From Cellulosimicrobium sp. Marseille-Q4280 (lineage in GTDB: Bacteria; Actinomycetota; Actinomycetes; Actinomycetales; Cellulomonadaceae), in assembly GCF_943181405.1 (NCBI RefSeq), contig NZ_CALPBY010000002.1, positions 558,001 through 622,000 on the forward strand: DNA of 64,000 nt, written 5' to 3'. Shown here in pieces: positions 9,545-30,721 of this stretch; position 1 is the stretch's first letter, and each line of letters begins with the position of its first letter. Position numbers and translations under genes: made by a program. The notes under the pieces were generated by a model, which saw nothing but the letters and a program-made list of their open reading frames with translations, searched no databases and was not told the origin of the DNA.

Positions 9545-10336
9545 ATGAAGCTCTGGGGAAATCAAGACACGCTCGGGCCGATCGGGGGTGCGATCCGATG
9601 GCTCCCTCGTTGGATGAGAATTACGGCCCTACTCATGATCAGCGCCGGGGTCGCAGGTGCGATACTCACTATCGCCATAGACGGGACTCAGTGGTGGCTT
9701 AGCCGGCCGTTCGCGACCAACTATCTATCCTCCTTGGTAGCCGCCCTCATCGGTATACCGATCTCCGTTGTACTCATTGCAGTCGTCGTCGACTTGGCGG
9801 CCCAGTCTCGAGCTGTCGGATATGGCAGAGAGACGGTTGGCCTTTCGCTATTGAGGCTGAGACGCGCCTCTATCAAGATGATAGGCGAAGACCTTCGGGG
9901 ACAAGACCTAGGCATTCGCCTTCCCCGGCGCCGCGCGGCAATTCAACGTGTTGAAGCTGCATTAGACCAGCGATACTATTCGAACGGCGACGACACCCAT
10001 ACGGAAAGCCAAGAAGTAGTTGAAGCAGCCGGCAAGATTGCCCAACACGCTCCGAACCACGACAGTTGGAAAAGGAGTCTCCGTGAGGCGCGAAGCGCAT
10101 GGAGCGACATACTTGCGGCGAAGCAACACGCGGAGGCAACAAACACGCCTTTCATCAGTGATGACTTGACACACACGACAAACGTGGCGATATCTCAACT
10201 TGATAGCGACGACTATATACCCCCCGGCCTTACTTGGTCGCCAGCAGTGGATCGCGCCCGGTCTGGAAACCACCTGCTACAGCTCGTAGAACAGATAGAG
10301 CGAGCGGCCCAAATCGTCTGGCGTGATAGCGAGTGA
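9545..10336 (+). CDS. Hypothetical membrane protein with two TM helices
   Basis: This 263-residue protein is not recognised. The start is taken as ATG 9545 because CACCAT lies six bases upstream, a leaderless arrangement; an ATG at 9500 would add 15 residues. Two hydrophobic helices are visible near the N-terminus (about residues 22-45 and 55-78), followed by a soluble, charged, mostly helical domain of about 180 residues containing RLPRRRAAIQRVEAALDQR. The gene is less GC-rich than its surroundings and is part of the island containing the reverse transcriptase. It could be a membrane effector or an unrelated passenger. Confidence 0.6.
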   Translation: MKLWGNQDTLGPIGGAIRWLPRWMRITALLMISAGVAGAILTIAIDGTQWWLSRPFATNYLSSLVAALIGIPISVVLIAVVVDLAAQSRAVGYGRETVGLSLLRLRRASIKMIGEDLRGQDLGIRLPRRRAAIQRVEAALDQRYYSNGDDTHTESQEVVEAAGKIAQHAPNHDSWKRSLREARSAWSDILAAKQHAEATNTPFISDDLTHTTNVAISQLDSDDYIPPGLTWSPAVDRARSGNHLLQLVEQIERAAQIVWRDSE

Positions 10337-10466
10337 CAGACGTCTCCAAGCATGGGAGCAACTCAATCCAGGCCGCGCTCAATTCGAACTAACCCGTATG
10401 TGCGTTGCACAATCGCAGTTCAGGCGAATAGTAGAGCGAGCCCAACGTGGGCACTGATCCTCCGCC

Positions 10467-11162
10467 CTACCCGGATACCTGGAGCTCCGTCATACGACGG
10501 ATGATCTCGCGCGCGAGTTCCGCCCAAGACAGTCCGCTGACGCCCTGCGCTACGAACTCGAGTGATACATTGACACGCGTTCCGAGTCGTGGATTGATTA
10601 ACCCCATTTCCGCATATTGACGTCCGTTTGCCGAGAACATCGCACAGTACGTGAGAAGTTGCCGTACGTCACTTGCTCGAAACTTGCGGGACACCGACTT
10701 TACTTCATAGATGCAGCCGTCTGCGACGATGTCGGCATGTCCTGTATCCACGACCCCACAACCCGGAACTGAGGGCCAAAATTCGATGTGAACGAATTCT
10801 CGAGTCATCCTTGCTAGGGCGTCAGCAAGTTGGCGCACCTCTTCAAGCTCATCCCCGTCAAGCGAGTGATCACTCGGCGGATTGAGTGAAAATCCCAACA
10901 GATACCTGCGTGCCGATTCCACCGCCGCGCCCATCGCTACTGGTTCGCGCATCGAATCGCCGCGTGCCACCAAAGCGAAGGCTGCCTCGGCGATCAAAGA
11001 ACTATTCCTTACCTCTGAACCAAGGGTTGGGACCCGCGCATTTACCTGTTCGCTCATTTCGTTTAGCCATCGTACGATCTGTTCCAGAGTGGGCGACAGC
11101 TCTGTCCAAATCGAGTTAGATCGCGCAAAGACCCGTGTCGAGATCACAAGGGGATTTCCCAT
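10467..11162 (-). CDS. PD-(D/E)XK-like nuclease domain protein, partner of the reverse transcriptase
   Basis: This 231-residue protein belongs to no family I can name. It holds a credible PD-(D/E)XK core: Asp144 in GHADIVADG, then Glu153-Val-Lys155 in IYEVKSVSRKF, followed by a helix with RQLLTYCAMF, the spacing expected for restriction-endonuclease-like folds. The N-terminal half is helical. ATG 11162 overlaps the end of the reverse transcriptase gene by 19 bases; an in-frame GTG at 11192 would give a longer overlap. The overlap implies co-translation and a joint role. Nuclease activity is inferred from the motif only. Confidence 0.6.
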   Translation of the reverse strand: MGNPLVISTRVFARSNSIWTELSPTLEQIVRWLNEMSEQVNARVPTLGSEVRNSSLIAEAAFALVARGDSMREPVAMGAAVESARRYLLGFSLNPPSDHSLDGDELEEVRQLADALARMTREFVHIEFWPSVPGCGVVDTGHADIVADGCIYEVKSVSRKFRASDVRQLLTYCAMFSANGRQYAEMGLINPRLGTRVNVSLEFVAQGVSGLSWAELAREIIRRMTELQVSG

Positions 11163-12649
11163 CCGGGTTGGTTGATCCGCTCCGATGCCCACTCTAGGAC
11201 AATCTGATCGTATGCTGGCAGCGCCCTGCGCTGGCCTTGCCGCCAGTGCCGTCCCTCGTCCTCAAGCGTAAAGGACGCAACTTCGAACGCCCGCCGTACC
11301 CAAGGATGCGCATGTTGGAACTGCGACCGCTGGTTCGTAACCCAATAGCGCGCACCCCATCTGGCCAACAGGAGCATTATGTCCCGTTGGATTACGGGAG
11401 AGGGCGCAGATCGAAAGCCATGCGGTTGATTGAAAAGACGTATGAGAAGAAGTTCGCTCTCTTTTGCGTACACCGTGGACAAAACTCGGATCATGTAGGC
11501 TAGATTCAGCTCAATTCTTACAATGTAGTGATCCGCATCGATCCTGCGTCTAATCTCGGATGCTACATAAAGAGCGAAATCTCTCGAGAGCCCCTCGAGA
11601 CTGGAGTGAATTGACATGAGAACATGCGGCATTACGGGCGCCAGGCGCTCAAAATTGCCCTCGTCGAGCAGCGAACGAATCGCAAGTTCCCGTGATCCTT
11701 CGTCCAAGAACCGAAGCGCTTTGACCAACTTCTTGGTCACCGAGGCATGGACCTGCCCTTTGACGAGTTCGCGGCGCAGTAGATCCAGAATGTCAAACTG
11801 CTCGAGCTGGTTGCGCAGGCGATCATAGTCTTCGACAGGGGTCTCAGAGTACGGGTCAAAGTGCAGGTGAAGACTGAGGAACTTCGCAGCGCTTCCTTCC
11901 GCGGGCTCAGGCGGGTCGAGAATCGAGAGATACTCATCCGCGGGATAGATTGCAGTCTTGCTCTTCTGTAGCGAAAGCCCTTGGTTCGAGTGTAGTTTGT
12001 CGGAGAGCGAACCGATCATTCGATATGCAGTCGGGACGTCACGAACGAACATGCGATAGTCGTCAGCAAATCTACAGAATTCGCTTTCGCCCCGCTCGGC
12101 TTCCATCAGAAGGTCAATTTCATTAATTGTGAGCTCGGAAAGCATGCGGGCAGCTGGACCGCCAACGGGGAGCCCGTAGGACGCAGAGTTTGAGATCTTT
12201 CCAAGAATCTTCATGACGTTACGTCGGCGTGCACCCGACGTGTCCACCGCTTGTAGAGCGTTTTCGATCCTATGATGATAGAGCCGGGGATAGAAGTCGG
12301 CGATGTCGGCTGTTACGACGTAGGGGTATTGCTCGGCCAATTCCCGGGAGCGAGACTGGAAGCGAGTCCATCCATCAAGTTCGAACAGTCGATCCGAGTC
12401 TCCCTCGTAGCGATACGAGAAGATTTTTCGCTCACTTTTCGGAATCCGCGCGTCTTCGATTCTTTCGGCAAGGGACAGCACCAGCCCGAGCAGGTATGCG
12501 TTCCAGATGGGGTCGATCTGCGTGGCCCACCTGAAGCCGGTGTACCCTACCGGCGCAAGAGTTGCGTGGCTCGACATGGGGGTCGCTTCAAGACTGCTAC
12601 TGAAGTCTTCGCCCATCGACATCAGTAGATCGGCGATTGCTTCGGGCAT
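11144..12649 (-). CDS. Abi/UG-type reverse transcriptase (candidate defence RT)
   Basis: This 501-residue RNA-directed DNA polymerase has motif A in TADIADFYPRLYHH (Asp115), the GLPVGGPAARMLSELTINEID block of the fingers/palm, and the catalytic CRFADDYRMF (Asp196, Asp197), followed by GLSLQKSKTAIY. The FADD box in place of YADD, and a C-terminal half of about 250 helical residues instead of a maturase or thumb/X domain, resemble abortive-infection and unknown-group RTs, many of which are phage-defence enzymes. There is no group II intron or retron architecture. The only start before an upstream stop is ATG 12649. Its 3' end overlaps the nuclease-like gene. The exact RT clade needs a phylogeny. 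Confidence 0.85.
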   Translation of the reverse strand: MPEAIADLLMSMGEDFSSSLEATPMSSHATLAPVGYTGFRWATQIDPIWNAYLLGLVLSLAERIEDARIPKSERKIFSYRYEGDSDRLFELDGWTRFQSRSRELAEQYPYVVTADIADFYPRLYHHRIENALQAVDTSGARRRNVMKILGKISNSASYGLPVGGPAARMLSELTINEIDLLMEAERGESEFCRFADDYRMFVRDVPTAYRMIGSLSDKLHSNQGLSLQKSKTAIYPADEYLSILDPPEPAEGSAAKFLSLHLHFDPYSETPVEDYDRLRNQLEQFDILDLLRRELVKGQVHASVTKKLVKALRFLDEGSRELAIRSLLDEGNFERLAPVMPHVLMSIHSSLEGLSRDFALYVASEIRRRIDADHYIVRIELNLAYMIRVLSTVYAKESELLLIRLFNQPHGFRSAPSPVIQRDIMLLLARWGARYWVTNQRSQFQHAHPWVRRAFEVASFTLEDEGRHWRQGQRRALPAYDQIVLEWASERINQPGWEIPL

Positions 12650-12984
12650 GTCGTGTAGGACGTGATTGTCGAAGGGGAAAGGGAAGATATCCGTGTCGCC
12701 CCAGGAAGCAATGTTTCTTACGCCAGCAAAGGAATGTGGTTCGCTCTACTATTGGCATAAGGTATCCCTATCCAGTCCGGAATTGTCCATTACGTCGGCA
12801 TTGACAATGGTGTATGTCGATGCCTGCTCGATAGCCCCAGAGGAGCCTACGTCTTGCGAGTATTTGAGGTCATAGGGCGCGCCAGGAGGTTCTGCTCGGC
12901 TGCGTCTCTCCCTTTCGCCCCACTCACGCGCCGCAATTCCGCTCCGGTTGTAGTCGACAGCTTTTGCTGTGCTGCGCACCAGCA
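12650..12984. other. Noncoding region upstream of the reverse transcriptase
   Basis: No supported gene is seen in this roughly 335-base low-GC stretch. Several defence RTs use a noncoding RNA encoded next to them, so this is the natural place for a template RNA or promoter. No clear long hairpin was found by eye. Confidence 0.35.
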
Positions 12985-13626
12985 CGGCCACCCGGCCTCG
13001 GCCCTGACCGACAACTGCCTGAACTACACCGTGCGCCTGACCAGCCACCGATACCGCGGCGGACGCACCGCGCTCGAGCACGAACTGCGCGCCCGCGGCA
13101 TCGTCCAGAACGGTCGACCCGACCACCCCAACACCCAGTGCAAGGTCGAACGCTTCGAAGCCGCGATGAAGAAGTTGCTGCGCGCCCAAACCGCCCAGCC
13201 CCGCACCCTCAGCGACCTGCAGACCCTGCTCGACACCTTCGCCGACCACTGCAATCACCACCGCCCCCTCCGATCTCTGCCACACCAGGCCACTCCGGCG
13301 ACCGCCTACACCGCCAGACCCTAGACCGGCCCGGCACCGCCTGGACCGCCGACACCCGCGACCGCATCCGCGAAGACCGCGTCTCTGCCACAGGCACCGT
13401 CACCCTGCGCCACGCCAGCCGCCTGCACCACATCGGCATCGGCCGCACCTACGCCGGAACCTACGTCCTGCTCCTGGTCCACGACCTCGACATCCGCATC
13501 ATCGACCGCGCCACCGGCGAGATCCTGCGCGAGCTCACCCTCGACCCCGCACGCGACTACCAGCCCACCAGCCGACCACCCGGGCCTACCCCGAAACGAC
13601 GAATGGCCGGACCTACGAAAACGTAG
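12985..13626 (+). pseudogene. Broken IS481-family transposase (5'-truncated, frameshifted)
   Basis: Frame 2 from about 12985 to the stop at 13322-13324 encodes the second half of an integrase-type DDE core: ALTDN (second Asp), RGGRTALEHELRARGIVQ, then HPNTQCKVERFEAAM (the Glu) and NHHRPLRSLPHQATPATAY. The C-terminal part continues in frame 1 (GTVTLRHASRLHHIGIGRTYAG, LVHDLDIRIIDRATGEILRELTLDP), so a frameshift lies near 13290-13330. The N-terminal helix-turn-helix and first Asp are missing. It is therefore a dead IS481-type remnant on the right side of the island. Confidence 0.85.
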
Positions 13627-13637: not shown

Positions 13638-13661
13638 CCGATGTCCTGAGACATCACACGG

Positions 13662-13735
<74 letters not shown>

Positions 13736-26095: not shown

Positions 26096-26748
26096 GTCGC
26101 CGGTGCGAGGAGGTACCCCGCGGCGAGGACCAGTGCGAGAGCGGACAGCGCGCCGCAGACCAGACCGATGCGCAGCCTCGCCAGCGAGCGCGCCGCGTGC
26201 GAGGTGGTCTCGACGAACGCCGTCTCGGCGTCGACGTCGACCATCATCTTCGGAAGACCAGCGGCAGCCCAGCCCGTGTACGCGACCGCCTGCGCGCCGA
26301 GGACGAGCGCGCCCATGACGAGGTAGTAGGCCGCCGCGTCCAGCGTCTGCCCTTCCGGCAGCTGCGGGTCGACGAGCAGGACGGCTCCGAACACGGCCAG
26401 CAGGCCGGCGAAGATCGTGCGCCACTTCTCCGCGGTGGACTGCGTCCGCAGGAGGAAGGTGCTGCGGATCCGCTCGGCTTCCTTCCCCCACTCCGTCTGG
26501 GCCTCCGCCCAGGCGAAGGCCGTGAGGTCCCCGGACTTCCGCCCGAAGGTCCCCGCCCACCGGAGCGACCCCGGGTCGCCAGCGGCAGGCGGCGCGGCGT
26601 CGCGTGAGAAGCCGGACGGCAGAGGTCGTCTGCGGCCGAGCTTGTCCCAGACGGTGCCCACCGTCATCGGCGCGAGCACGCACTGCACCGCGAACGTCAC
26701 GGCCAGGACTCCCGCCGTCCCGACCACCGACCACCCGAAGACCGTCAT
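26092..26748 (-). CDS. Membrane protein of unknown function
   Basis: The 218-residue protein from ATG 26748 (GGGGGAG five bases upstream) has about four hydrophobic helices: VFGWSVVGTAGVLAVTFAVQ, IFAGLLAVFGAVLLV, YYLVMGALVLGAQAVAY and IGLVCGALSALALVLAAG. The loop between the first two is soluble and rich in charged residues (DLTAFAWAEAQTEWGKEAER). No family is recognised. It is the first gene of a two-gene unit with the winged-helix protein through a GTGA overlap, and is divergent from the cohesin gene. Confidence 0.75.
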   Translation of the reverse strand: MTVFGWSVVGTAGVLAVTFAVQCVLAPMTVGTVWDKLGRRRPLPSGFSRDAAPPAAGDPGSLRWAGTFGRKSGDLTAFAWAEAQTEWGKEAERIRSTFLLRTQSTAEKWRTIFAGLLAVFGAVLLVDPQLPEGQTLDAAAYYLVMGALVLGAQAVAYTGWAAAGLPKMMVDVDAETAFVETTSHAARSLARLRIGLVCGALSALALVLAAGYLLAPAT

Positions 26749-26873
26749 GCCGACTCCCCCGTCCGCCTCGTCCGATGGTGGCAGCACGAGCGCAGCTCCG
26801 CCCTCCCACGGCGGCCGGTCTCGCTCGGTGCGCGAGACGAAACCGAGACCCGCGTGCGTGTTTGCGCTAACAC

Positions 26874-26887
26874 CGTCGAAACGGTCG
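26874..26887. promoter_or_regulatory. Short palindrome in cohesin promoter region
   Basis: ACCGT and ACGGT are inverted around CGAA in the divergent intergenic region 92 bases before the cohesin gene. It may be an operator; no regulator is adjacent. Confidence 0.25.
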
Positions 26888-26978
26888 GGAAACACGGTGC
26901 TGTGAGCATCGGTCGCGGCAGGGCACCCCTTCGACCCGGGGACGCGCCCGCGCCGCCCGAGGAAGGAACCGCTCCCCC

Positions 26979-27758
26979 ATGACCCACACCCCCACGCGCC
27001 GTCGGGCACGACGACGCGCCACGTTCGTCGGCGGCCTGACGCTCGCCGCGAGCCTGCTCACGGCCCAGGCGGCCCAGGCCGCCCCGTCCGTCGCCGACGT
27101 CACCGTCGACGCGCCCGCCACCGTCGAGGCCGGTGAGCCCGTCGAGGTGACCGTCGCCGTCACGGGCGCCGCCGACGTCTACGCCTACGACCTCGCGGTC
27201 GCGTACGACCCCGAGCTCGTCGAGTACGTCGAGGACAGCGCCGTCACGCCCGACGGCGGGTTTTCCGACGCGACGGACGACGGCGCCGGGACGGTCGCCG
27301 TCGCGCACACGCGTCTCGGCACCTCGCCGGGACTGGATGGCGACGTCACGCTCGCGACGCTGACGTTCACGGCCCTGGCCGCGGGCGACGCGATCTTCGA
27401 CGTCCCCGTCGTCACGTTCGTCGGCACGGACGAGGAGACCGTCACGCTCGAGGACGCCGGGACCGCGACCACGACCGTCACGGCCGTGCCCGTCCCCACG
27501 GACGAGCCAGGAGAGACGACGCCGCCCACCGACCCGGGCACGACCGACCCCGGCACCACCCCCACGGACGACGACGCGACCTCCGACCCGACGTCGCCCG
27601 CGACGTCCGGCACGGGCGGCACGGGCGGCGGCGGCCCGGGCGGCCCGCTCGCCTCGACCGGCGCGAGCGTCGCGGCCATCGTCGCCGGCGCCGTGCTGGC
27701 CATCGCGACCGGCGTCGGGATCCTCGTGGCACGCCGTCGGGCGGTGGCGTCCCGATGA
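26979..27758 (+). CDS. Cell-wall-anchored cohesin-domain protein
   Basis: The 259-residue precursor has a signal peptide cut near AQAAPS, then one cohesin-like domain (about 37-155) with the family pattern VYAYDLAVAYDPELVEYV, GTVAVAHTRLGTSPG and LATLTFTALAAGDAIF. A Pro/Thr/Asp-rich spacer (about 168-220) leads to LASTG (224-228), a hydrophobic helix and RRR, the layout of a sortase signal; LAxTG is used by actinobacterial class E sortases. Cohesins bind dockerins. The next gene, four bases overlapping or 53 bases on depending on start, encodes a dockerin enzyme, so this protein probably holds that amidase on the cell wall. Confidence 0.85.
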   Translation: MTHTPTRRRARRRATFVGGLTLAASLLTAQAAQAAPSVADVTVDAPATVEAGEPVEVTVAVTGAADVYAYDLAVAYDPELVEYVEDSAVTPDGGFSDATDDGAGTVAVAHTRLGTSPGLDGDVTLATLTFTALAAGDAIFDVPVVTFVGTDEETVTLEDAGTATTTVTAVPVPTDEPGETTPPTDPGTTDPGTTPTDDDATSDPTSPATSGTGGTGGGGPGGPLASTGASVAAIVAGAVLAIATGVGILVARRRAVASR

Positions 27759-27811
27759 GCACGCACACCGCCACGACCGTCTCCGCGCACCACCCCCGGA
27801 AGGACCGACCC

Positions 27812-29668
27812 GTGACCCTCACGCACCGCCGCGCGGCAGGGGGCGTCGCCGCGCTGACGCTCACCGGCCTCGTCGTCGGCCTCGCCGCCGCGCCGACCGC
27901 GACGAGCGCACCCGCAGCGCCCGGCGCGTCCGGGACGCTCCTCGCGCCCTACTACACCGAGCTCGACCTCACGGGCGACCTCCAGGTGACGGCGGACGAC
28001 CTCGCGGTCGTCGCCGCGAACCTCGGCCTGACCGCCGACGACGAGGGCTGGAAGGACGTCGCGCTCGCCGACACCGACGCGGACGGCGCCCTCACGGTCG
28101 CCGACCTCGCCGCCGTCTCGCAGCGCATCGTCTACGACGACGGGCCGTTCGAGCTCGTCGAGGCGTCCGTCGTGGACATGCAGGCCGCGATGAACGCGGG
28201 CGTGACGACGTCCGTCGAGATCACCCAGGAGTACCTCGACCGCATCGCGGCGTACGACCGCACGCTCGTCGACACGTCCGAGGGCGGCCGCCCGCTCGCG
28301 TCGATCGTCACGACGAGCACGGTCGCGCTCGACGCCGCGAAGCAGGCCGACGCGGTGCGCGCGTCGCAGGGCATGACGAGCATGCTGCTCGGCGTGCCGG
28401 TCGCGGTGAAGGACAACTACGACACGAAGGACATGCCGACGACCGGCGGCTGCGGGTGCTGGGACGCCAACCAGACTGCGACCGACGCCGCGATGGTCGA
28501 CGGCCTGCGCGCCGACGGCGCCGTGCTCCTCGCCAAGGCCAGCCTCGACGAGTTCGCGTTCGGCTTCGAGTCGCAGTTCTCGTCCTTCCAGGCGGCCGGC
28601 TCCGCGACGTACGTCGCGAGCCCCTACTCGACGAGCCGCACCGCCGGCGGGTCGAGCGGCGGTACCGGGGCAGCCATCTCGGCCAACCTCGCCGGCATCG
28701 GGTTCGGCACCGACACGGGCGGCTCGATCCGCGTGCCGTCGTCGTACAACCAGCTCGTCGGCGTGCGCCCGACGATCGGCCTCGCGTCCCGCGACGGCAT
28801 CATCCCGCTCGCGCTGAGCCAGGACACGGGTGGCCCGATGACGCGCAGCGTCACCGACGCGGCCGTCGCGCTCGACGCGGTCGTGGGCGTCGACCCGGCC
28901 GACCCGGTGACGTCGCGCCAGCAGGGCGAGGTCCCGGCGTCGTACACGCAGTACCTCGACGCCGACGCGCTCGACGGCGCCCGCATCGGGTACGTCCCGT
29001 CGATGATCGGCACCAACGCGACCACGGTGCGCCTGTGGGCCGAGACCCGGGCGACGCTCGAGTCGCTCGGCGCGACCGTCGTCGAGGTCACCCCGCCGAC
29101 GTCGTACTCCGACGGCCTGCCGCGCGGCTTCGCGAGCGTCGTCGGCGAGGGCTCCGGCTCGACGAACGAGTTCAAGCACGACCTCGACGCGTACGTCGCG
29201 AACCACCTCTCCCCCGCGGTCGAGGCCCGCACGCTGTCGCAGATCGTCGACTCGGGGCGCTACGTCCCGTCGCGCCGCAGCACCTACGTGTCCCGCGGGG
29301 CGATCACCGAGGAGACGTACCAGGCGTGGGCCGGCCCCGAGGGTACGCACACCAAGGTGCTGGCCGAGGGCAAGACGCTCGTCACCGGGATGCTCGACGA
29401 GCTCGAGCTCGACGCCCTCGTCTACCCGAGCGGCAACCCCTACGGCACGATCGGCACGAACCTGCGGCTCAGCCCCAACACGGGGATGCCCGCCGTGACC
29501 GTGCCGATGGGTCAGGCGTCCGCGACCGAGGCCATCCCCGGCGCCGGCGTGAACCTCGAGCTGCTCGGTCGGGACTTCGACGAGGGTCCGCTGCTCGGTC
29601 TGGCGTACGCGCTCGAGCAGGCGACGCAGGCCCGCACGGCTCCGCCGCTGTACGGCCCGCTGGGCTGA
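27812..29668 (+). CDS. Secreted amidase with N-terminal type I dockerin
   Basis: The 618-residue precursor starts at GTG 27812 after GGAAGGA; ATG 27755, overlapping the cohesin stop, is the alternative. A signal peptide (LTLTGLVVGLAAAPTATSAP) is followed by a dockerin at about 52-108: a first imperfect calcium loop beginning DLTGDLQVTADDL and a canonical second loop DTDADGALTVADL. The amidase-signature domain follows with the catalytic triad Lys200 (VAVKDN), Ser281 (GGSSGG) and Ser305 (DTGGSIR). The family hydrolyses amides; the substrate here is unknown. The dockerin should bind the cohesin encoded just upstream. Confidence 0.88.
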   Translation: MTLTHRRAAGGVAALTLTGLVVGLAAAPTATSAPAAPGASGTLLAPYYTELDLTGDLQVTADDLAVVAANLGLTADDEGWKDVALADTDADGALTVADLAAVSQRIVYDDGPFELVEASVVDMQAAMNAGVTTSVEITQEYLDRIAAYDRTLVDTSEGGRPLASIVTTSTVALDAAKQADAVRASQGMTSMLLGVPVAVKDNYDTKDMPTTGGCGCWDANQTATDAAMVDGLRADGAVLLAKASLDEFAFGFESQFSSFQAAGSATYVASPYSTSRTAGGSSGGTGAAISANLAGIGFGTDTGGSIRVPSSYNQLVGVRPTIGLASRDGIIPLALSQDTGGPMTRSVTDAAVALDAVVGVDPADPVTSRQQGEVPASYTQYLDADALDGARIGYVPSMIGTNATTVRLWAETRATLESLGATVVEVTPPTSYSDGLPRGFASVVGEGSGSTNEFKHDLDAYVANHLSPAVEARTLSQIVDSGRYVPSRRSTYVSRGAITEETYQAWAGPEGTHTKVLAEGKTLVTGMLDELELDALVYPSGNPYGTIGTNLRLSPNTGMPAVTVPMGQASATEAIPGAGVNLELLGRDFDEGPLLGLAYALEQATQARTAPPLYGPLG

Positions 29669-29704
29669 GCTTCCGCACAACGCAGCACGGCGACGGCCGG
29701 TCCC

Positions 29705-30721
29705 TCAGGGCCGATCGTCGCCGTACTGCGCGTGGATGTCACCGCCGACCAGACGCCAGCAGAAGTCGTTCATCCGCGCCGCGGCGGGAGCGTGCCGCGC
29801 GAGGACGCCCGCCACCGGCGCCGGCACGTCGGCCGGGACGTCTCCGCTCGCACACCGACGGACGTAGGCGTTGCGGGCCACCGGACCGCCACTCGCCGGC
29901 ATCGGCACGCCGCACGCCGTCGTGACCAGCCAGTTCACGAGCCGCATCGCGGCGTAGTCGGCGTCGTGGTCGACGTTGCGCGCGACGAAGGCTTGCTCGG
30001 CGTCGGACAGGTCGAACCGCGTCGACGTGGCGAGCCCGAAGTCCACGAGGTAGACCCGCTCGTCGTCGGCCCGCATGTTGCCGAAGTGACCGTCCAGGTG
30101 CAGCAGCTCCCGGCGACGCAGGAACGCGACGGCCTCGAACAGCTGCTCCTCGAGCCGCTCGGCTCGGGCCGCCGGGTCGTCCAGCCAGTCGGGCAGCCGA
30201 TCCGGGAGGTGCTCGAGGAAGAGCACGAGGCTGGAGGTCGCGTGGCCCAGCTCCTCGAACCGGGTCCGCACGGCAGGATCCCCGCCGAACTGGGCGACGA
30301 CCGCCTCGAGGTCCTGGTGCTCGGTCGCAACGGGCGGGCGACCCGGGAGCACGCGCCAGTGATGCAGCAGGGCGAAGGACCCCGACTCACCGGCGAGCAC
30401 GCCCTCGGTGACGATCTCGTTCGCCGCCAGCTCGCGCCACGCGCCGAAGCCCGGTCCGGCGAGGCGGTGCATGCCGTACTGGCAGGAGGTCGGCAGGTCG
30501 AACAGGTTGGCCGTGCTCCGCGGGTGGGCCAGCTCGCGGTCGGTGATCGGGACGCGCTTGGCGAACACCGGGACGCCGTCGACGTCGAGCACCGAGGAGC
30601 CACCGCCCACGCCCACGGCGTCGGCGGGTGCGGCATGGAGGAGCGCCGCCAGCCCGTCGTCGTCGCGAGTGGCGAGCGACGCGGACACGCGCTCATGACG
30701 GGCGCGGCGGGTGCTGAGCAT
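29705..30721 (-). CDS. Protein-kinase-fold protein
   Basis: The 338-residue protein has a kinase-like core: VDGVPVFAKRVP with a candidate ATP lysine, ALLHHWRVLPG, LVLFLEHLPDRLPDWL, then the catalytic loop ELLHLDGHFGNMRADD and the metal motif VYLVDFGLATS. The HxDxxxxN pattern and DFG are intact, so phosphotransfer is plausible. No extra sensor or membrane domain is seen. CAGAAT six bases before ATG 30721 suggests a leaderless start. The target is unknown, and it could phosphorylate protein or a small molecule. Confidence 0.75.
   Translation of the reverse strand: MLSTRRARHERVSASLATRDDDGLAALLHAAPADAVGVGGGSSVLDVDGVPVFAKRVPITDRELAHPRSTANLFDLPTSCQYGMHRLAGPGFGAWRELAANEIVTEGVLAGESGSFALLHHWRVLPGRPPVATEHQDLEAVVAQFGGDPAVRTRFEELGHATSSLVLFLEHLPDRLPDWLDDPAARAERLEEQLFEAVAFLRRRELLHLDGHFGNMRADDERVYLVDFGLATSTRFDLSDAEQAFVARNVDHDADYAAMRLVNWLVTTACGVPMPASGGPVARNAYVRRCASGDVPADVPAPVAGVLARHAPAAARMNDFCWRLVGGDIHAQYGDDRP

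Follow-up and report, generated by a model that had tools for sequence, protein, structure and literature searches.

Cohesin-dockerin pairing is familiar above all as the means by which the large carbohydrate- and cellulose-degrading complexes of other bacteria are held together. What would a cohesin and a dockerin do side by side where the enzyme that comes with them is an amidase? The question is raised by two adjacent genes at 26979–29668 of a 64,000-nucleotide stretch of Cellulosimicrobium sp. Marseille-Q4280 (contig NZ_CALPBY010000002.1; the whole stretch is hereafter called the window). An initial annotation, made from the letters without database searches, had attributed the DNA to an actinobacterium, correctly as its source shows, and had read the genes as a small system for displaying an amidase on the wall. 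Comparison with relatives makes it likely that they form a self-contained unit keeping one secreted amidase on the cell surface, in a predicted noncovalent display on the wall, and the cohesin of gene 1 and the dockerin of gene 2 are very probably partners. As judged from sequence comparison, the pair is real and conserved, and it is a variant of the known cohesin-dockerin theme.

Domain content of the two genes

The features of the locus are as follows.

26960–26969, +, ribosome-binding-site-like AGGAAGGAAC, upstream of gene 1 (sequence)
26979–27758, +, gene 1 (259 aa), cohesin protein ending in a sortase anchor (sequence, Pfam)
26979–27083, +, gene 1 signal-peptide-like N-terminus: Arg-rich, hydrophobic, AQA-A (by eye)
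27084–27494, +, gene 1 cohesin domain, Pfam match 27099–27392 (PF00963)
27495–27647, +, gene 1 spacer rich in Pro, Thr, Asp and Gly (by eye)
27648–27755, +, gene 1 sorting signal: LASTG (27648–27662), hydrophobic stretch, RRR tail (sequence)
27798–27804, +, ribosome-binding-site-like GGAAGGA, upstream of GTG 27812 (sequence; relatives compared by eye)
27812–29668, +, gene 2, dockerin-amidase with signal-like start; GTG start, alternative ATG 27755 (Pfam, sequence)
27938–28144, +, gene 2 N-terminal dockerin, about 69 residues (PF00404; 27-sequence alignment)
27965–28000, +, calcium loop 1, DLTGDLQVTADD (40-sequence comparison)
28070–28105, +, calcium loop 2, DTDADGALTVAD (40-sequence comparison)
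28145–29665, +, gene 2 amidase-signature catalytic domain, Pfam match 28217–29317 (PF01425)
28409–28411, 28652–28654 and 28724–28726, +, putative catalytic Lys219, Ser300 and Ser324, numbered from ATG 27755 (homologue motifs)

Gene 1 matches the Cohesin family well above its curated cut-off (PF00963; E 6.4e-13, 49.5 bits against 24.1), and the cohesin family profile matches the NagJ cohesin structures 2w1n, 2jh2, 2o4e and 2ozn. The layout first proposed for this gene (signal peptide, one cohesin-like domain, Pro/Thr spacer and LASTG) was borne out, the cohesin by Pfam and the rest by eye, the N-terminus being signal-peptide-like. As expected of a sortase-anchored surface protein, an L-x-x-T-G motif is followed by a hydrophobic stretch and a positively charged tail, and the genome encodes three sortases, two of class E (243.7 and 237.2 bits, the cut-off being 160) and a third that is class F-like and falls under its cut-off. 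Class E sortases prefer LAxTG; with a LASTG signal and two such enzymes above cut-off in the genome, the sortase-type anchor of the initial annotation was upheld. The model for LAVTG sortase-dependent proteins (NF058582) matches gene 1 weakly (19.5 bits, under its cut-off of 27). No promoter or terminator patterns were found in 26700–29850.

Gene 2 lies directly downstream, so the cohesin gene does stand just before the amidase, as had been described. With an ATG at 27755, in frame with gene 2, the gene would share 4 bases with the end of gene 1; the start is more probably GTG 27812, because GGAAGGA stands in front of it and a similar site precedes a GTG near the matching place in 26 of the 27 rows of relatives compared by eye, the remaining row ending at a contig edge. 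That the enzyme is an amidase and not a glycoside hydrolase, another early claim, is supported by the match to PF01425 (E 4e-75), and the solved structures closest to its catalytic domain are the peptide amidases 5ac3 and 1m21. The Lys motif is present in 40/40 sequences and the Ser motifs in 39/40, the exception (G015) being cut by a contig end; we take Lys219, Ser300 and Ser324 to have the roles of catalytic Lys, Ser-Ser and Ser, respectively. In an NCBIfam scan of the enzyme, none of the best 25 of 26 models reaches its cut-off, and Pfam lists no carbohydrate-binding module in either protein.

The N-terminal domain of gene 2 is, on its profile matches, a real yet divergent dockerin. Dockerin_1 (PF00404) covers profile positions 3–56 of 57, is the sole family listed for the domain at E 0.01 and matches 27/27 aligned family members at that threshold. 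The initial annotation was thus right about the dockerin, but not about its single canonical calcium loop: there are two in tandem, as in type I dockerins, and positions 1, 5 and 12 of each are acidic. Across 40 sequences, our own included, Asp occupies these positions in 39, 39 and 40 cases in loop 1 and in 39, 36 and 39 in loop 2.

Several observations pull the other way. The domain scores under the Pfam cut-off of 22.9 (15.6 bits in the whole protein, 22.3 as an isolated domain), EF-hand models also match the aligned members (four families in 15–22 of the 27, a fifth in 6), and the best 60 of 225 PDB matches of the dockerin profile are calmodulins and calmodulin fusions, so that the PDB comparison cannot tell a dockerin from EF hands. 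On these grounds gene 2 might carry an ordinary EF-hand module and gene 1 an ordinary beta-sandwich, the genes being neighbours through a common pathway and the domains making no contact. We consider this improbable: Dockerin_1 is found in every aligned member, the cohesin is well above its cut-off, and the strict three-way co-occurrence, the fusions and the correlated distances described below all argue against it.

Co-occurrence of cohesin, dockerin and amidase

The genome (4.86 Mb in 12 contigs, listed as 99.99% complete) encodes one cohesin and one dockerin, those of gene 1 and gene 2. No further cohesins were found up to E 0.1 and no further dockerins up to E 1, the latter being a check that the initial annotation had suggested. 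That the one cohesin and the one dockerin of a genome are neighbours argues against a chance match. These counts also bear on the question of a cellulosome, in which several cohesins, dockerin enzymes and glycoside hydrolases would be expected. With a single cohesin and a single dockerin detected here, and an amidase in place of a glycoside hydrolase, we rejected that assignment. Cellulosome-like surface structures have been reported for Cellulosimicrobium and its relatives (PMC4562250), which would favour the idea that the pair is a remnant or offshoot of a true cellulosome whose other dockerin enzymes share the cohesin; with one of each domain detected, a lone cohesin in its protein and neither protein listed with a carbohydrate-binding module, this is very improbable.

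Within the genus, each of the 17 genomes searched (our own included; Cellulosimicrobium cellulans F16 is not among them) has one cohesin, and the family search places the dockerin in the same 17. We then consider the 221 genomes of the family, searched at E 0.001 for the cohesin, E 0.01 for Dockerin_1 and E 1e-90 for the amidase; the best six amidase candidates per genome were scored, and weaker relatives thus lie outside the count. The cohesin was found in 26 genomes and this amidase in the same 26, all of them within the 28 that have a dockerin, and at these thresholds the amidase never occurs without the cohesin. The dockerin match exceeds the Pfam cut-off in 26 of the 28, the two below it being our own genome and G016. 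In the two extra dockerin genomes, G135 and G162, the matches sit in other proteins; these, and a second match in G138, fall in regions that match none of the three family profiles and were left out of the pair counts.

Fisher tests of co-occurrence gave p values of 8e-32 and 2e-34 with kinship ignored, and it counts against the proposal that these 26 genomes cannot be treated as independent of one another. They are spread over 6 of 25 genera, from which it seems that cohesin, dockerin and amidase are gained or lost together. The two genes are adjacent and on one strand in 23/23 family genomes that have both on one contig; in the others (G003, G063 and G204) the two genes are on different contigs, both of which break off there. 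The conserved co-occurrence that the initial annotation had proposed to look for is therefore present, in adjacency as well as in presence. In the bin G015 (75% complete), a further dockerin-amidase is found where another contig ends; this bin was counted once.

Beyond the family, an order-wide sample contained the cohesin at E 1e-5 in 13/396 genomes, 7 of which were new to our counts. Family profiles found a dockerin-amidase beside the cohesin or fused to it in 7/7 of these; the Pfam dockerin model matches 5/7, and 2/7 have no Pfam match. A scan of a named collection with a single cohesin protein yielded 588 stretches, among which no relative was confirmed. Scanned by alignment, the same collection gave 29 loci, 23 actinobacterial and 6 from Paenibacillus, several of them duplicating genomes numbered with G here. 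The actinobacterial loci are filed under Cellulosimicrobium, Isoptericola, Cellulomonas, Sanguibacter, Microbacterium, Herbiconiux, Nocardioides and, in one case, Sphaerisporangium. This last entry (L098, titled Sphaerisporangium cinnabarinum ATCC 31213) is probably a misnamed Cellulosimicrobium. A dockerin-amidase is present in 20/23, one of them degenerate, and the other three (L089, L108 and L111) break at a contig end by the cohesin.

A phylum-wide sample contained the cohesin in 4/396 genomes, namely our own and three of one distant genus. The latter (G951, G784 and G943; L132–L134) weigh against a fixed pairing: these small genomes carry another cohesin in frames of 2131–2209 aa, and in two of them no dockerin was detected, so the presence of a cohesin need not mean that a partner dockerin exists. 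With this other architecture, the three were excluded from the pair counts. In G943, a dockerin match stands just before the cohesin within one frame.

The 40 actinobacterial units (ARRANGEMENTS) comprise 30 with the cohesin gene first, 4 with the dockerin-amidase first (G138, G167, G169 and one Nocardioides), 3 in a single frame and 3 split between contigs. Cohesin and dockerin distances were correlated across 38 pairs (r 0.75), after G015 (amidase cut off) and a degenerate Microbacterium unit had been dropped, and the partial r was 0.38 once the amidase distance had been removed. With a single Cellulosimicrobium retained (23 pairs), the values were 0.66 and 0.40. The observed partial r was reached in 0/2000 permutations in either set; as a sign of coevolution it is suggestive, because pairwise distances are interdependent.

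Probable wall display and possible roles of the contact

How might such a module work? We propose that the gene 1 protein is exported and that its LASTG motif would be joined to peptidoglycan by a class E sortase, leaving the single cohesin facing outward. The gene 2 protein, also exported, would then clip to this cohesin through its calcium-loaded N-terminal dockerin, in a contact that calcium may control. The docked Lys-Ser-Ser amidase would act at the surface, probably on amides of extracellular peptides or related small amides, a guess at peptide-type substrates that draws only on its likeness to the solved peptide amidase. Across 19 loci from many genera, clusters of the pair and of overlapping frames span 16–19 loci (a split Sanguibacter locus contributes the amidase alone), the widest other gene cluster spans 5, and no conserved neighbour hinting at a substrate was found.

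The anchor is common among homologues. A sorting motif L-x-x-T-G is present in 34/38 readable cohesin C-termini, with a hydrophobic stretch and an Arg tail seen by eye. Against wall display as a general role stand the 4/38 that lack a sorting signal, in Isoptericola sp. AK164, Nocardioides sp. Root1257, Nocardioides sp. zg-DK7169 and Microbacterium sp. Marseille-Q6648. In the last of these (L106, 5578–8439), which is also the third of the single-frame units, the cohesin gene shifts frame before the anchor, as judged by eye, and the dockerin is without the linker and the first part of loop 2, so that the family profile matches loop 1 only; the locus possibly reflects joint decay, or else an assembly error.

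Fusions pose a further difficulty. Dockerin, amidase and cohesin occur in one open frame in Nocardioides sp. zg-DK7169 (L107) and in G401 (L128), the latter a draft judged 69% complete. The G401 protein terminates in LAVTG and a hydrophobic stretch, and the zg-DK7169 protein has no sorting signal. Both match the Pfam amidase and cohesin models above cut-off. The dockerin is less secure by Pfam, at 21.0 bits and under the cut-off in G401 and with no match at E 0.01 in zg-DK7169; the family profile supports it in both (E 5.7e-25 in zg-DK7169). The fused proteins thus retain a dockerin and a cohesin though attachment would need no docking.

These cases would be accommodated if the contact were mainly a calcium-dependent assembly or regulatory lock that stabilises, matures, shields or oligomerises the amidase, wall attachment being optional. 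Single-frame proteins with and without a sortase signal, the anchorless cohesin partners of Isoptericola sp. AK164 and Nocardioides sp. Root1257, and the absence of the amidase without cohesin from all 221 family genomes at the thresholds used all favour such a lock. So does the junction between dockerin and amidase, which has little linker (peptide-amidase similarity starts at residue 130) and in which R, Y, D and G of R..Y.DG are invariant across the 27 aligned dockerins. However, a sorting signal and spacer, needless for a pure regulator, are kept in most homologues (34/38), and the fusions may be recent and their dockerins vestigial, one being known from an incomplete draft. We regard the lock as rather unlikely. 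With similar reserve we hold the broader idea that actinobacteria have a dedicated module, made up of a single cohesin and a single dockerin and acquired or lost whole, whose contact would be part of the enzyme (activating, stabilising or oligomerising it), with display a frequent addition. Were the lock to prove true, cohesin-dockerin pairing would be in use outside both carbohydrate breakdown and multi-enzyme scaffolding.

Wall display is, on present comparisons, the likeliest role of the pair in its own organism, yet it does not appear to be the conserved core of the system, given the four cohesin proteins without a sorting signal and the two single-frame fusions. Since some lineages have the pair without the anchor, and since both domains are retained in the fused chains, docking may have a further role for the amidase as such, an idea in keeping with the short junction and its four invariant residues.

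Known systems and other features of the window

The arrangement resembles several known systems in part. ScaE of Ruminococcus flavefaciens likewise combines a cohesin with a sortase signal at its C-terminus, and fixes ScaB and CttA to the wall (PMC4081043). ScaE, however, works inside a large cellulosome that has numerous scaffoldins and dockerins, whereas our genome yielded a single cohesin and a single dockerin, the latter borne directly by the amidase. The NagJ-type (X82) cohesins of Clostridium perfringens, the nearest solved ones by sequence, are also single and operate outside cellulosomes (PMC12997984). All five cohesin proteins of C. perfringens bear a glycoside hydrolase domain according to that paper, in contrast to the present anchor protein, which has no catalytic domain and an amidase as partner. 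The mucinolysome and amylosome, as presented there, are other uses of cohesin and dockerin apart from cellulose, and cSca5 of the mucinolysome combines a cohesin with an LPxTG sortase anchor; unlike our pair, with its single amidase in actinobacteria, they are gut-bacterial systems in which several enzymes deal with complex carbohydrates. The word 'amidase' is absent from the main text of PMC12997984.

Closer to our organism, PMC4562250 reports neither a cohesin nor a dockerin in the translated genome of C. cellulans F16, and states that the multienzyme complex of this strain requires calcium to retain activity. Neither domain is reported for three Cellulomonas genomes in PMC3544764, which fits a patchy presence of the pair. 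Among the open papers searched, we found none that describes a sortase-anchored cohesin with a dockerin-amidase as its partner; individual examples from actinobacteria may appear in the survey of non-cellulosomal cohesins by Peer et al. (2009). The pair appears to be a minimal one-to-one cohesin-dockerin system serving an enzyme other than a carbohydrate-degrading one, in bacteria whose published genome surveys reported neither domain. Small and easily tested, it could be a clean model for the working and evolution of cohesin-dockerin pairs, for which co-occurrence, order swaps, fusions and one possible joint decay provide natural experiments. It is also a possible means of display on actinobacterial walls.

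A possible parallel, with a different anchor and cargo, comes from the Paenibacillus loci (L112–L117), in which a large multidomain protein is encoded directly upstream of the cohesin protein in 6/6 cases. The cohesin proteins have three SLH stretches in 6/6, and Pfam Cohesin matches in 5/6. The large proteins end in a C-terminal stretch that matches the family dockerin profile (E 1e-5 to 8e-13); Pfam Dockerin_1 matches this stretch in 1/6, under its cut-off, and the parallel is weak for that reason. As in Cellulosimicrobium, a surface-anchored cohesin protein thus stands beside a protein with a dockerin-profile match. The anchor differs, being SLH and not sortase, and so does the cargo, which consists of GH53, CBM9, polysaccharide-lyase or unnamed domains: among the five of six large proteins scanned whole, FIVAR was found in 5 (3 above cut-off), and GH53, CBM9 and a polysaccharide-lyase domain in one each.

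For the enzyme itself, the top match among solved structures along the full catalytic domain is peptide amidase (1m21 and 5ac3, which we take to come from Stenotrophomonas maltophilia), and the amidase-signature motifs line up between the two. It differs in that these chains align to the amidase part of gene 2 alone. An open-literature search on peptide amidase returned no paper.

Elsewhere in the window, at 10467–12649 on the minus strand, a reverse transcriptase matches Drt8 (438.5 bits) and an overlapping downstream gene matches a DRT-associated PDDEXK model (175.6 bits). Together they represent a DRT type 8-like defence system, located in a low-GC stretch (0.553 at 10001–12000) near a tRNA-Pro gene (13660–13735). 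At the edge of this stretch, a frame at 12854–13324 on the plus strand has an rve_3 integrase-core match and is probably a transposase remnant.

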